Below, piece by piece: positions 29,304 to 33,729 of a stretch of 64,000 bases of DNA. A program made the position numbers and the translations under genes. Source of the DNA: Nitrososphaeria archaeon (GTDB lineage Archaea > Thermoproteota > Nitrososphaeria > Nitrososphaerales > JAAOZN01). The first letter of the stretch is position 1. Each line of letters opens with the position of its first letter. The stretch covers positions 124,001 to 188,000 of the forward strand of contig JARVJZ010000003.1 in assembly GCA_029775855.1 (NCBI GenBank), given 5' to 3'. Below the pieces are notes generated by a model. It did no database searches, was not told the origin of the DNA, and saw nothing but the letters and a program-made list of their open reading frames with translations.

Positions 29304-29777
29304 TCAGCTTCGACAGAAGCGCCCCAGCTTTTTTACAGCTTCCTCAGCTTCTCTTGTTAATTCCTCTTTGAAGTCTATACATTTAGGTTGAATGCCAAGC
29401 AGCGCTATTTTCGCTGAGACGCTTTGACTTAAATATCTAGCCAAGGTATCTAAGCTGATTGAGTGTGTAGAAAGAGGGAGATCATCGATTTCATCCATAG
29501 AAATAAGCCTTGTGTAGCCTGGTTTCCTGTTGAGTTGAGCTGCATCTACAAAGAGTATATGTGTTGGCTTGAAACTTGATATTACATCCGTGTAGCTCTC
29601 AGGGGTTGTTTCGGCTTCTATTAGAAATATGTTATCTCCTACTCTTCCTTTGAGCGTGTCGATGAGTTCAAGTCCTATAGCGTCGTCTCCACGCAACCTA
29701 TTGCCTAAACCAACTATAACCAGTTTCTTCATTCCATAAAGCCAGTTGCTGAGATCTTTCTCTAACTTCAGAGCCAC
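29304..29777 (-). CDS. Hydrogenase-maturation-type protease (HycI/HyaD family)
   Basis: Endopeptidase family that clips the C-terminal tail of [NiFe]-hydrogenase large subunits after nickel insertion. Nickel-sensing residues are visible: VGLGNRLRGDDAIG (Asp/Glu region near 22-35), the FVDAAQL aspartate near 76, and STHSISLD histidine near 98. The family fold is complete over 157 residues. The start is read as GTG 29777, since the LEKDLSNWLYGMKKLV lead is typical of archaeal relatives; an ATG at 29732 is possible. It is convergent with the lipoyl-protein gene. No hydrogenase subunit gene occurs in the window. Confidence 0.85.
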   Translation of the reverse strand: MALKLEKDLSNWLYGMKKLVIVGLGNRLRGDDAIGLELIDTLKGRVGDNIFLIEAETTPESYTDVISSFKPTHILFVDAAQLNRKPGYTRLISMDEIDDLPLSTHSISLDTLARYLSQSVSAKIALLGIQPKCIDFKEELTREAEEAVKKLGRFCRS

Positions 29778-30014: not shown

Positions 30015-30581
30015 TTGAGTTATTTGCCAACTGTGGGTAAGAAGTATGAAGAGTATGCTTATGTGCTTGATTTTCTGCGTAGAGGTCGTTCCTCAGTAAT
30101 AAAGGGTAGGGAAGGTCCGCTTGTGCAGGCTTTGGGTGAAGAGCGGCTTACTCTTCTGGAGATACTTGCTGTGGAAGGTGCTTCTTTTGAGGTAGGTGAG
30201 CGAATCTACATAGGGAAAGAAGGTAGGACGAAGGTGTTGAGCGTTTTAGGGCGCTTAAGCTATGATGATCTGACCTCAGACGCTAAAGCTGAGTTGCCTA
30301 GAGTTGTTGAGCAGCTCGTTTTAAATAATGAGAAGAGGTTTGTGGCTCTTTTTAATGAGCTTCAACCCGTAACTCCTAGATTGCACGCGCTTGAGCTTAT
30401 ACCCGGCATAGGTAAGACCTTTATGTTTCAGATACTTGAGCAGAGAAGCAAGAAACCTTTTGTCTCGTTTGAAGATGTTCAGAAGAGGGTTGGTTTAAGA
30501 GACCCAGCTAAGCTCATAGCGAAGCGGGTCATTGAGGAGCTTACTGGGAACTGTAGGATAAACTTGATTGTAAGGAAATGA
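30015..30581 (+). CDS. DUF655 family protein (helix-hairpin-helix)
   Basis: Archaeal protein of 188 residues with a DUF655 domain. Near residue 120 the sequence LHALELIPGIGKTFMFQIL resembles a helix-hairpin-helix nucleic-acid-binding motif; the N-terminal half (YAYVLDFLRRG, RTKVLSVLGRLSYDDLT) is the family core. Genes of this family commonly precede ksgA, as here (4-base overlap), which suggests a role in rRNA handling or ribosome assembly, but no reaction has been assigned. TTG start after a long leader. Confidence 0.85.
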   Translation: MSYLPTVGKKYEEYAYVLDFLRRGRSSVIKGREGPLVQALGEERLTLLEILAVEGASFEVGERIYIGKEGRTKVLSVLGRLSYDDLTSDAKAELPRVVEQLVLNNEKRFVALFNELQPVTPRLHALELIPGIGKTFMFQILEQRSKKPFVSFEDVQKRVGLRDPAKLIAKRVIEELTGNCRINLIVRK

Positions 30582-31336
30582 GAAGGCGGAGGCTCTTAGG
30601 GCAGCATACACTTGTGGATTCAAATGTAGTTGAAGCTATGGTTGAAGCTGCTGAACTAGAGGGTTGTGAGGTTGTGTATGAGATAGGAACTGGAAGCGGC
30701 GTGTTGACGCGAAGGCTTTGTAGCCTCGCTGGTAAAGTGGTATCTTGTGAGGTTGATGAAGCGTTATATCGTGTAGCGCTAAGTAAGTTAGATGCAAAGA
30801 ATCTAAAGCTGATTAGAGGAGATGGTTTTGACGCTGATGTTAAGTTTGATGTCTTTATCTCAAGCCTACCCTACTACTGCTCATCAAGGTTCGTAAAGTG
30901 GCTTATCGGTAAGAAGTTTAATAGGGCTGTGGTGCTCCTTCAGAAAGAATTTGTTCAGAAGCTGCTAGCTGAAGTTGGGGGAAAGTATTATAGGGCTATA
31001 TCAGTGTTAGCTCAATACGCCTTTAACATCACACCTATTAGAGATGTGCCTCCTGATGCCTTCACACCTAAACCAAAGGTTCAATCTACGCTCGTGTTGA
31101 TAACGCCGAAGCCGAATAGAAGCCTTAGCAAAGAGATTACACAAACCATATACAAACTATTTGCTTTGAGAAAGAAAAAGGTCTCGACAGCCTTCAAGAT
31201 GTTGGTAAAGAATTCTAAGATATGTGCTTTACCAATACATCCAACTCTTTTAGCTAAGCGTGTAGCATCTTTAACACCTGAAGAAGCCGTTGAGTTGGCT
31301 AAGCTGTTGGTCGACTGCTTTGACGGAAGCTTATAG
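30578..31336 (+). CDS. ksgA: 16S rRNA adenine dimethyltransferase KsgA/Dim1
   Basis: Dimethylates the two adenosines near the 3' end of 16S rRNA. The RLLGQHTLVDSNVV N terminus, SAM-binding EIGTGSGVLTRRL (near residue 36), and the motif IV region SSLPYYCSS (near 92, in the place of the usual NLPY) are visible, followed by the FVQKL and FTPKPKVQSTLV segments of the family. Length 252 is slightly short but complete. ATG overlaps the DUF655 stop by 4 bases; the methylase gene that follows overlaps its end. Confidence 0.92.
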   Translation: MRRRRLLGQHTLVDSNVVEAMVEAAELEGCEVVYEIGTGSGVLTRRLCSLAGKVVSCEVDEALYRVALSKLDAKNLKLIRGDGFDADVKFDVFISSLPYYCSSRFVKWLIGKKFNRAVVLLQKEFVQKLLAEVGGKYYRAISVLAQYAFNITPIRDVPPDAFTPKPKVQSTLVLITPKPNRSLSKEITQTIYKLFALRKKKVSTAFKMLVKNSKICALPIHPTLLAKRVASLTPEEAVELAKLLVDCFDGSL

Positions 31337-31862
31337 ACCTAGAGAAGATAGTCTACTTCTTGCAAATGTTGTAGAATCTATATCAGCCAATTTAGCCTTG
31401 GAGATAGGGTGTGGAGTTGGGTTTGTGTTAGAGTCGCTGGCTCAGCGCTGTGTCTTTGTGGTTGGTATTGATTTGGATAAAGATTCTTTGAGCCAAGCAA
31501 AGATTCGCTTGAAAGAAAAGGGGTTGACTAACTTTGAAGTGATCTGCGGTTCATCAGCAGAACCATTTATAGGTGAAGTCTTTGACTTGATTGTGTTTAA
31601 TCCACCCTACTTACCCTCGTTAACTATCGAAGATAGGGCTGTGGATGGAGGATATAGAGGTGTAGAGGTATCATTAGAGTGGCTTAAAGAATGTAAAAGA
31701 GTTGTTAAGGCTGGTGGTAAAGTGCTCCTTATCTCCTCAAGCCTAGCCTCACAGAACGACTTGATTCAAGGTGCACAAGCCTTAGGTTTCAAGATGAAAC
31801 TCCTCGCCTCGAAGCATCTCTTCTACGAAGATCTTTATGCTTATGAGTTCACCTTCGGCTAA
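31320..31862 (+). CDS. HemK/PrmC-like glutamine N5-methyltransferase
   Basis: SAM-dependent methylase likely acting on the GGQ glutamine of release factor aRF1 (Mtq2-type short form lacking the bacterial N-terminal domain). Motifs: YRPREDSLLLA at the N terminus, SAM loop LEIGCGVGFVLESL, and the catalytic NPPYLPS. I place the start at TTG 31320 (MTEAYRPRED), because archaeal homologues start just before this PxED segment; the longer frame from 31290 would run far into ksgA. It overlaps ksgA by 17 bases, and its stop interlocks with the convergent gene in the tetramer CTAA. Confidence 0.87.
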   Translation: MTEAYRPREDSLLLANVVESISANLALEIGCGVGFVLESLAQRCVFVVGIDLDKDSLSQAKIRLKEKGLTNFEVICGSSAEPFIGEVFDLIVFNPPYLPSLTIEDRAVDGGYRGVEVSLEWLKECKRVVKAGGKVLLISSSLASQNDLIQGAQALGFKMKLLASKHLFYEDLYAYEFTFG

Positions 31863-32956
31863 GATGTGTGAAGCTCAACGACATCCCCATCCTTTAACTT
31901 GAAGTTTCTACCCACCTTCACGCCCTCTGGTAAACCTCTACGCCAAACCCTAGCGTAGCTGAAGAACTTCAGAAAATCCTTATGTATCTCAGCAGCCAAA
32001 TCTAAGACTGTAGCTCCTTCATTAAGAAGAATCGGCTTATCCGCTGGCTGAGAATTTGGCGCCTTCGTATAGACCCTAATCTTGCTCAACTTGGCTAGGA
32101 TCTGGTTTACAAGTTCATCTTGCTTGAGTGTTGTGAGAGGTATGATGTTGCTTAACCCAATTCTATCAAGCATATCTGTAGCCTCTGGCGTTAGTGGTAT
32201 GAACTGTAGGTTTCTAGCCTCTCTGCCGAAGACCGCTGCCTCAAGGTCGTCTAAAGTGGCTGTCTTTGAGACCTCCACTATAGCGTTTCTAATCGTGTAT
32301 GATCTTAGAAAGTTAACAACTTCTCTTTCACTCAGATGGTTTGAGCTGCCTACTACTCTTATGCCGCCTGAGGGGGTATGTTTTATTTCTACATCTAGGT
32401 TAGGTTTTTTAACCTCAATATTATGTTCTTCAAACCACTTTATTAGAGCGTTAAGATATTCTTCACCTTCATATCTTATTGGTGTTAGGATGATGTCGCT
32501 GTTTCTGGCTATGCCAAGGAACCGCTCTAGCTTCTCATCCCCTATCTGCCTATCAAACGGCGTTAAAATCAATTGTATAGTTAAGCCCAAGCCTTTAAGC
32601 GCACCAACTATAGGTGAAGCCAGCGCCTCATGCGCTGCGACATCTTTTGAGGCCATTGTGTTAAAGAATATAAGCGATGTCTCTACGCTGCTCATTACCG
32701 CTGCTTGAAGTGCCCCCTCCTTCTTAACGACCCACTCGCTTCTTACTGATGCTTTGCGGCGAAGCTTCGCTCTCTCAATCTCTTCTTCGAGGGATGCTAT
32801 CTGCCTCTTTATCGACATCTCAAGTTTTTCTGTCCCCTTATGCTTAGGGAAGCTTGAGTAGAACTCTTTGAGCAGCCGTAGTTTCTGCACTGGATCTTTA
32901 GCGGCTATGGCTTCAGCCCACTTTGCTTTTGCTTGCTCAGGTAGGTTGGTCGGCAT
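31859..32956 (-). CDS. DRG/Rbg-derived TGS-domain protein with a degenerate GTPase domain
   Basis: Related to the ribosome-associated DRG GTPases. The N-terminal helical part (residues 1-64, MPTNLPEQAKAKW and KHKGTEKLEMSIKRQIASL) is nearly canonical DRG, and a TGS domain fills about 285-365. The GTPase core between has lost its motifs: at the P-loop position (87-95) the sequence is VMSSVETSL instead of GxxxxGKS, the DTPG switch is LTPF (131-134), and no NKxD is seen. It therefore probably does not bind GTP in the normal way and may act as a structural ribosome factor. The stop interlocks with the convergent hemK-like gene. Confidence 0.85.
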   Translation of the reverse strand: MPTNLPEQAKAKWAEAIAAKDPVQKLRLLKEFYSSFPKHKGTEKLEMSIKRQIASLEEEIERAKLRRKASVRSEWVVKKEGALQAAVMSSVETSLIFFNTMASKDVAAHEALASPIVGALKGLGLTIQLILTPFDRQIGDEKLERFLGIARNSDIILTPIRYEGEEYLNALIKWFEEHNIEVKKPNLDVEIKHTPSGGIRVVGSSNHLSEREVVNFLRSYTIRNAIVEVSKTATLDDLEAAVFGREARNLQFIPLTPEATDMLDRIGLSNIIPLTTLKQDELVNQILAKLSKIRVYTKAPNSQPADKPILLNEGATVLDLAAEIHKDFLKFFSYARVWRRGLPEGVKVGRNFKLKDGDVVELHTS

Positions 32957-33027: not shown

Positions 33028-33729
33028 ATGTTGAGGAAACTTTCACTCGCCGTTGTTGAACCTACCTACCCAGTTAACATAGGTCACCTCGCTAGGTTGG
33101 CCAAGAACTTTGGGCTTCACTCATTAATCCTTATAGAGCCTTCATTTAAAATAGAGGAAGCCTTACCCTACGCTTCACACGGCGCCGATATTTTAAGAAA
33201 CGCAAAAGCTATGTCTCTAAAAGAGGTCTTCGAGCGTTTTGAATTAGTTATAGGCACAACATCTATACCAGGTGGTTCAAGAAACATCAAGCGCGATGTG
33301 ATATCGCCGGAAGATGCTGGAAAACGCATCTCAGAAACTAGTGGAAGCGTATGCATTCTATTAGGTAGAGAAACAACAGGTTTAACAAATAAGGAGCTCG
33401 AGCTATGTGACTTAGTAATCTCAATACCAACTGGCACGACATATAGAACTCTGAATATATCACACGCAGCAGCTATAATATTATACATAATCTATAAGTC
33501 AAGCAGCAGAAAGGTGAAAAAAGCAGAGGTGCCAAGAACTATGAAGGCACTGTTATTAGATTCTGCGGTTGAATTGGCGGAGCTATCTGGTTTTCCTAAA
33601 TATAAGGTAGGGATGCTGCGCGACTCCTTAAAGATGCTTGTAGGCAGAGGCAACCCCACGCATAGAGAACTCTCCTTAATCTTAGGATTGTTAAGAAAAG
33701 CTATCTTAGCTTTGAAGAGGCGGGGTTAG
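33028..33729 (+). CDS. trmJ: TrmJ-type SPOUT RNA methyltransferase
   Basis: 2'-O-methylates a tRNA nucleotide (position 32 in known TrmJ). Motif 1 VVEPTYPVNIGHLARLAKNF (near residue 10), motif 2 LLGRETTGLTNKEL (near 110) and motif 3 IPTGTTYRTLNISHAAAI (near 132) form the knotted SpoU fold. A C-terminal helical extension (about 165-233) matches archaeal TrmJ. ATG 33028. Divergent from the DRG-like gene; its stop interlocks with the convergent methyltransferase gene in TTAG. Confidence 0.9.
   Translation: MLRKLSLAVVEPTYPVNIGHLARLAKNFGLHSLILIEPSFKIEEALPYASHGADILRNAKAMSLKEVFERFELVIGTTSIPGGSRNIKRDVISPEDAGKRISETSGSVCILLGRETTGLTNKELELCDLVISIPTGTTYRTLNISHAAAIILYIIYKSSSRKVKKAEVPRTMKALLLDSAVELAELSGFPKYKVGMLRDSLKMLVGRGNPTHRELSLILGLLRKAILALKRRG

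Follow-up and report, generated by a model that had tools for sequence, protein, structure and literature searches.

A DRG homologue without GTPase motifs alternates with the canonical DRG among Nitrososphaeria

DRG proteins, which assist the ribosome and normally run on GTP, are ancient and conserved from archaea to humans. To our knowledge, the role of their GTPase on the ribosome is not settled. The 64,000-nucleotide stretch of DNA analyzed here (the window; positions 124,001 to 188,000 of contig JARVJZ010000003.1, from a Nitrososphaeria archaeon of the order Nitrososphaerales) encodes at 31859..32956, on the minus strand, a GTPase-less DRG homologue of the MPTNLP type described below. The gene is a whole coding sequence with its stop codon, and its 365-amino-acid product starts MPTNLPEQAKAKW; it was identified from its open reading frame, its relatives, matches to Rbg2 and Rbg1 in the PDB and a structural model.

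All parts of the gene named here lie on the same strand. Residues 1-76 (32729..32956), an extension (1-22) followed by a helix-turn-helix (HTH)/coiled segment, are the best-conserved part by pairwise identity, and an AlphaFold2 model places helices at residues 7-18, 22-35 and 43-75. The HTH has the conserved lysine loop of a DRG: PKHKGTE at residues 37-43 (32828..32848) aligns with the NKAT loop of canonical DRGs. Its K40 is presumably the counterpart of Lys22 of human DRG1. The first segment of the G-domain remnant (residues 80-181; 32414..32719) has Rossmann-like strands and helices in the model and no Pfam GTPase match. It is followed by an S5D2L-like insert (residues 182-232; 32261..32413), visible in the alignment with Rbg1/Rbg2 and in the model; MMR_HSR1_Xtn matches residues 197-245 at 24.5 bits, under its cut-off of 35.2. 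The second G-domain segment (residues 233-291; 32084..32260), in which G4 and G5 are gone, is the most relaxed part by the ratio of non-synonymous to synonymous substitution rates (dN/dS). The C-terminal TGS domain of a DRG is present at residues 293-364 (31865..32080; Pfam PF02824, 50 bits, cut-off 22.2). The initial annotation, made from the letters of the window, had described both flanks of the G domain as well kept. The N-terminus is not of the plain DRG type but carries an additional conserved segment of ~22 residues.

End to end, the best match of the protein is DRG, by phmmer, Foldseek and VIA-align and in a tree with a DRG outgroup. Against the PDB, phmmer matched residues 24-362 to yeast Rbg2 (7nrc, E 4.8e-17) and nearly the full length to Rbg1 (E 8.8e-10 and 1.3e-9), and it also found the TGS domain of human DRG1. 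The AlphaFold2 model, built from 80 sequences (predicted local distance difference test 86.6; predicted template-modelling score, pTM, 0.65), shows N-terminal helices, a Rossmann-like core, an S5D2L-like insert and a TGS domain. Foldseek ranks chains of Rbg1 and Rbg2 first to fourth (E 6e-22 to 1e-16), and VIA-align compares it with Rbg1/Rbg2 at Z 18.8, 17.6 and 15.7 (root-mean-square deviation 5.1-5.5 Å over 278-283 residues), the next entry having Z 13.9; a P-loop-bearing relative (L087) reaches Z 23.7 against Rbg1. Membership of the YchF/OLA1 family is not indicated, as PF06071 scores 15 bits (cut-off 27) and a YchF-related NCBIfam model 20.9 bits (cut-off 387).

The defining motifs of the GTPase are absent. 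The stretch singled out by the initial annotation (32537-32704, residues 85-140) covers the former P-loop and G3 sites. At the first (G1; residues 89-95, 32672..32692), the alignment columns show SSVETSL, one residue shorter than GxxxxGKS and without its lysine or glycines; at the second (the DxxG of switch II; residues 131-134, 32555..32566) they show LTPF. Switch I is shortened in the alignment, and the G4 site, outside that stretch, is deleted near residues 256-257 (32186..32191), where TP alone remains of NKxD. A motif scan of the whole 365-residue protein found none of GxxxxGK[ST], [NT]KxD or D[TLFPV]PG. In a Pfam scan of the window protein MMR_HSR1 was unmatched even at E 1, and the rows other than TGS and MMR_HSR1_Xtn were two at chance level; a canonical DRG from the same order scores 93.5 bits. 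Motif scan and alignment columns thus bear out the claim that P-loop, switch and NKxD motifs are gone, with the amendment that the canonical switch motif, given as DTPG, is DLPG in the window's order. Judged by sequence, the protein is a DRG by descent and, lacking G1, G3 and G4, is not a DRG GTPase. Pseudo-GTPase is a descriptive class for proteins like this one, in which the fold is kept (here in the model) and the catalytic and binding motifs are absent; we class it as a DRG-derived pseudo-GTPase, predicted not to bind nucleotide.

The gene is intact and under purifying selection. Two congeners (G001 and G002) carry the same uninterrupted 365-residue frame, their proteins being 83% and 78% identical to that of the window, and dN/dS over the whole gene is 0.06-0.15 in seven pairs, so that no sign was found of the frameshift or assembly error against which the prediction was to be checked. 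Regional values are rough, since dS is saturated in several sub-regions: the first G segment gives 0.07-0.14 in five of the seven pairs (where computable) and residues 241-290 give 0.14-0.37 in six and 0.88 in the closest pair, which has few changes there; in most pairs the strongest relaxation is in the second G segment. Within the window's order, mean pairwise identity is 80% in the extension (1-22), 78% in the HTH (23-60), 44% in the first G segment, 48% in the insert, 38% in the second G segment and 55% in the TGS domain, compared with 74, 73, 56, 54 and 63% in canonical DRGs from the HTH onwards. The drop is thus greatest in the G domain, mainly in its first segment. Together with the low dN/dS and the missing normal DRG (see below), these figures (44% against 78%; 73% against 74% in canonical DRGs) agree with the selective loss that had been proposed.

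A search of GTDB contigs returned 455 stretches that encode relatives, of which the best 80 were kept; these 80 come from records labeled as Thermoproteota, Nitrososphaeria, Bathyarchaeota or their subgroups, or simply as archaea. Among viral contigs, 81 stretches matched the search pattern and none encoded a relative. By its sequence, the window protein is assigned to a Thermoproteota type of DRG with an "MPTNLP" N-terminus, which forms one group against the canonical DRG in the tree (support 100). The tally comprises 195 different sequences of this type (identical or contained sequences mostly removed, near-copies remaining): GxxxxGK[ST] is present in 104, 54 have no P-loop, and in 37 it is altered, usually by a change of K to R. 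DxxG is retained in three of the 195, and G1, G3 and G4 occur together in 3/195, compared with 16/16 canonical DRGs. The sequences without a P-loop belong to the window's order (18), other Nitrososphaeria orders (18), the Sulfolobaceae type (13) and five others, namely three sequences from family f22, a partial one and a near-copy. MMR_HSR1 falls along the same series, from the 93.5 bits of the canonical protein to 71.2 and 74.2 where the P-loop is kept and 55.0 with K to R; the three further proteins scanned, one from Sulfolobaceae and two from Nitrososphaeria, gave no match. Comparison with DRGs of TACK archaea upholds the motif loss and extends it beyond the window protein: the loss is phylum-wide and graded.

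Sulfolobaceae and Nitrososphaeria are different classes. Two quick trees place the Sulfolobaceae sequences among P-loop-bearing Thermoproteia, away from Nitrososphaeria; their flanks are 60-65% identical to the closest P-loop-bearing rows and at most 50% identical to any P-loop-less row outside the family. We do not claim independent loss of the P-loop in the two classes, because one common P-loop-less clade is not rejected by approximately unbiased tests (p 0.515 and 0.791) and the trees contain long branches. A partial sequence (L018) was omitted from the family trees, as were near-identical rows by identity cut-off or choice, and L001 and L223 were left out of the family set; L055 carries a stop within the matched stretch. 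Several forms within the type deserve mention. In many lineages of Bathyarchaeia (e.g., L078, L092, L127) the P-loop lysine has become arginine (GxxxxGRS) and G4 is usually kept; from the sequence, this is possibly a nucleotide-binding but hydrolysis-dead state. Family f74 (L236, L241, L242, L243) has proteins of ~321-324 residues in which the G domain is cut further and the TGS domain altered. Family f22 (L164-L166, L283), from another class, has in the same TrmJ-DRG-PrmC-DUF655 neighborhood a DRG that also lacks the P-loop but carries another sequence in its place.

A normal DRG next to the altered one, another point to be checked, was not found in the window's own genome (98% complete), nor was a second copy of the window gene. 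The same genome encodes two other TGS proteins with intact P-loops, which we take to be YchF/Ygr210-like. The distribution of the two forms was followed in three overlapping genome samples. In the first sample, of 41 genomes (the window's own and 40 relatives), a canonical DRG scoring at least 550 bits is found in 25 and the MPTNLP type in 15; no genome has both, and the single one with neither (G016) is 82% complete. The MPTNLP gene is thus found in 15 of the 16 order-level genomes without a canonical DRG, in one case split over two contigs. Of 150 Nitrososphaeria genomes, 106 have the canonical form at E 1e-100 or better and 33 have the MPTNLP type at E 1e-30 or better; with these thresholds 11 have neither form, and no genome has both. 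Among 300 genomes of the phylum, a canonical DRG (E below 1e-150) is present in 46, all from the window's order and none with both forms; the remaining four of the 50 same-order genomes have the MPTNLP type. Of the other 250, 236 have a match to the window protein with an E-value of at most 0.001, a few of them weak (e.g., G213, G280, G297, G302), where other TGS proteins are possible. The window form therefore alternates with the normal DRG between genomes, by replacement and never in coexistence. Two outliers were set aside as probable contamination: a second DRG outside the order (L223 in G316; 307-308 bits, on a 3.7-kb contig) and a P-loop-bearing sequence nearest to Ignisphaera (L237 in G362; on a 7.4-kb contig). 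Family f11 is itself divided by genus, G035 having the GTPase-less DRG, away from the KsgA locus, and G012 and G026 the canonical one.

The window gene lies antisense between two methyltransferase genes. At lower coordinates, on the plus strand, are genes for a DUF655 protein (30015..30581; PF04919, 194 bits; part of a conserved neighborhood), a KsgA-type rRNA adenine dimethylase (30578..31336; PF00398, 161.8 bits) and a small methyltransferase that we label PrmC-like (31290..31862; Pfam methyltransferase families alone). On the other side is, also on the plus strand, a SpoU-family methyltransferase that we label TrmJ-like (33028..33729; PF00588, 88.2 bits). A gene for the hydrogenase maturation protease HycI (29304-29777, minus strand; Pfam, 48.8 bits) adjoins the DUF655 operon. 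Of nine named Nitrososphaeria loci, eight have the PrmC-like neighbor and eight the TrmJ-like one; at the 71 other named loci all of the six window neighbors compared are absent. The slot is retained on at least one side in families f1, f2, f6, f7, f13, f16, f70 and f73 (PrmC side), in f71 (DUF655-DRG-TrmJ, three of four loci) and, outside the class, in f22. In f75 the slot genes are ~1 kb from the DRG, and the DRG lies outside the usual slot in three f74 loci, f76 and G035.

None of 17 canonical-DRG loci has a window neighbor within 1.5 kb. A search of 19 genomes recovered 18 KsgA loci, 17 from genomes with a canonical DRG and one from a carrier of the MPTNLP type (L249, G035). The slot is empty, with PrmC and TrmJ adjacent (gaps 32-163 nt), in six of the canonical-DRG loci; in the remaining ones TrmJ or PrmC lies outside the fetched piece or was not found. 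G029, which has a canonical DRG (651 bits), retains in a 219-nt PrmC-TrmJ gap (L284:1988-2206) a fossil of an MPTNLP-type gene in the window's orientation. Its start, with in-frame stops, aligns at a score of 112 (44 for the best of 200 shuffles) and its last codons at 54 (best shuffle 45), no shuffle reaching the score at either end. Seven canonical loci were tested in this way, and the remaining six (L251, L247, L254, L258, L260, L263) gave no significant relic. Since the fossil lies in the slot of a canonical-DRG genome, the MPTNLP type came first, at least in that lineage. Beyond it, we infer the same direction: the MPTNLP type would have been lost where the canonical DRG is now found. A tree of the four neighbor genes (42 rows, ten with under half the columns; L281 left out for too few), which is no species tree, implies six switches of DRG type, at least four forced by well-supported branches; there are 5-7 switches in bootstraps and a mean of 13.4 when shuffled.

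We put a probability of roughly 55% on the reading that the window protein is a DRG descendant which would still do the DRG's job without nucleotide binding or hydrolysis and could be exchanged with the GTPase form. Homology, motif absence, purifying selection, kept architecture and the replacement pattern are computational results; ribosome binding and mechanism are argued by analogy with yeast. In PMC8040806, cryo-electron microscopy of a stalled ribosome places yeast Rbg2 in the A-site factor region, with TGS on the small subunit, the G and HTH domains in contact with the stalk base, the sarcin-ricin loop and H89, and S5D2L on the A-site tRNA. Lys22 of human DRG1, in the N-terminal region of the HTH, is hydroxylated by JMJD7, according to PMC11400632. 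The regions retained in the window protein, foremost the HTH loop, are the equivalents of the parts by which Rbg2 contacts the ribosome. When a ribosome is slow or has stalled, the protein may dock in its factor site and hold the A-site tRNA steady for peptide-bond formation; it would then depart without hydrolysis, for example when outcompeted by elongation factor 2. The G-domain remnant would then be a structural spacer and the protein a nucleotide-free A-site clamp. Nucleotide control was probably lost stepwise, switch II first and later the P-loop lysine or the whole pocket in several lineages. More tentatively, and at somewhat less than even odds, the ancestor of Nitrososphaeria had a P-loop-less DRG that was swapped for a canonical GTPase DRG, e.g., in ammonia oxidizers, with at least four switches on the neighbor-gene tree, so that the lineage would run the ribosome function of DRG without GTP. 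According to PMC8629797, a single DRG copy may be present in archaea, with a fairly wide distribution across the group.

Several points weigh against a DRG that works without its GTPase. As reported in PMC8629797, GTPase-inactive Rbg1 failed to rescue yeast growth and a GTPase-domain mutant bound the ribosome more weakly; a dead G domain should therefore cost function unless compensated. The TGS domain brings Rbg1 to polysomes via its partner Tma46 (PMC3510508), and the existence of such partners in archaea is described as unclear (PMC8629797). The 11 of 150 genomes with neither form, the shortened f74 form (~322 residues), whose still greater losses suggest drift in function, and the Foldseek deviation of 16 Å from Rbg1 at pTM 0.65, which leaves the domain arrangement uncertain, point the same way; the complementary distribution could also come from the sorting of two paralogues.

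The protein might instead have left elongation and become a scaffold for rRNA or tRNA modification or ribosome assembly with KsgA and the PrmC-like, TrmJ-like and DUF655 proteins. The neighborhood is conserved in most examined Nitrososphaeria carriers and in f22, which speaks for this explanation, but the gene is antisense to these neighbors, they occur at none of the 71 named loci outside Nitrososphaeria though the same DRG type is present there, and the methyltransferases persist without the gene in canonical-DRG genomes. Alternation with the canonical DRG would also be unexpected of a protein with a new job. We regard the scaffold as unlikely. Slightly more doubtful still is a cryptic nucleotide binder, in which the remnant fold would bind GTP or another ligand through moved residues and the switch would persist. 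The predicted Rossmann core and the selection on the segment are compatible with it, yet the P-loop is shortened without lysine or glycines, switch I is shortened, G3 and G4 are gone, no conserved replacement motif is seen in the clade alignment, and conservation is lowest in the second G segment.

That the gene is decaying, on its way out and with no function of its own, appears very improbable. Canonical-DRG genomes did lose it, one keeping a fossil, and lengths go down to 321 residues; its dN/dS, its presence in 15/16 order-level genomes without a canonical DRG, and an N-terminus conserved as in canonical DRGs or more all speak against decay. An assembly or frameshift artefact, for which no support was found, is refuted by the same open frame in independent genomes, the two congeners included. 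The GTPase-less form stands where relatives carry a GTP-using DRG, which suggests that DRG may be able to do without its GTP engine; if so, GTP hydrolysis would be an optional control layer on DRG and not its engine. The natural proteins grade from live GTPases, via forms with a dead switch II, to forms with no pocket, and are exchanged with the live DRG in relatives; they offer a ready-made test of where in DRG the function resides. A further consequence is that annotation based on GTPase motifs overlooks DRG in part of Thermoproteota (Sulfolobaceae and most sampled Nitrososphaeria orders). No title or abstract on a GTPase-less DRG was found in the literature searched, which is weak evidence of novelty as subscription papers were mostly outside its reach.

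Among the closest known systems is the canonical archaeal DRG of Nitrososphaerales relatives (e.g., L020), which is homologous end to end and alternates with the window type but has all motifs (16/16), no N-terminal extension and another locus; the aligned 80-291 span has a median of 212 residues in the window's order and 230 in canonical archaeal DRGs. The P-loop-bearing MPTNLP-type proteins of Thermoproteia and Bathyarchaeia (e.g., L087, L079) share the N-terminus, the architecture and the tree family, mostly at 33-39% identity, but keep a P-loop (or its K-to-R form) and mostly G4, the DxxG glycine being nearly always absent. With DRG1/DRG2 (Rbg1, Rbg2; OBG family) the window protein shares the HTH, a G fold interrupted by what looks like an S5D2L insert, and TGS; it differs in lacking G1, G3 and G4, in its extra N-terminal segment and in having no known DFRP partner. 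YchF/OLA1 and Ygr210-like TGS GTPases resemble it in G domain and TGS but have an intact P-loop, are not known to have the HTH/S5D2L arrangement and match its structure more weakly (Z at most 13.9). Eukaryotic pseudo-GTPases, e.g., those in p190RhoGAP and CENP-M, likewise retain the GTPase fold as a scaffold after motif loss; in contrast to them, the window protein comes from another, translation-linked family, in which the loss is graded and the altered form alternates with a live one.
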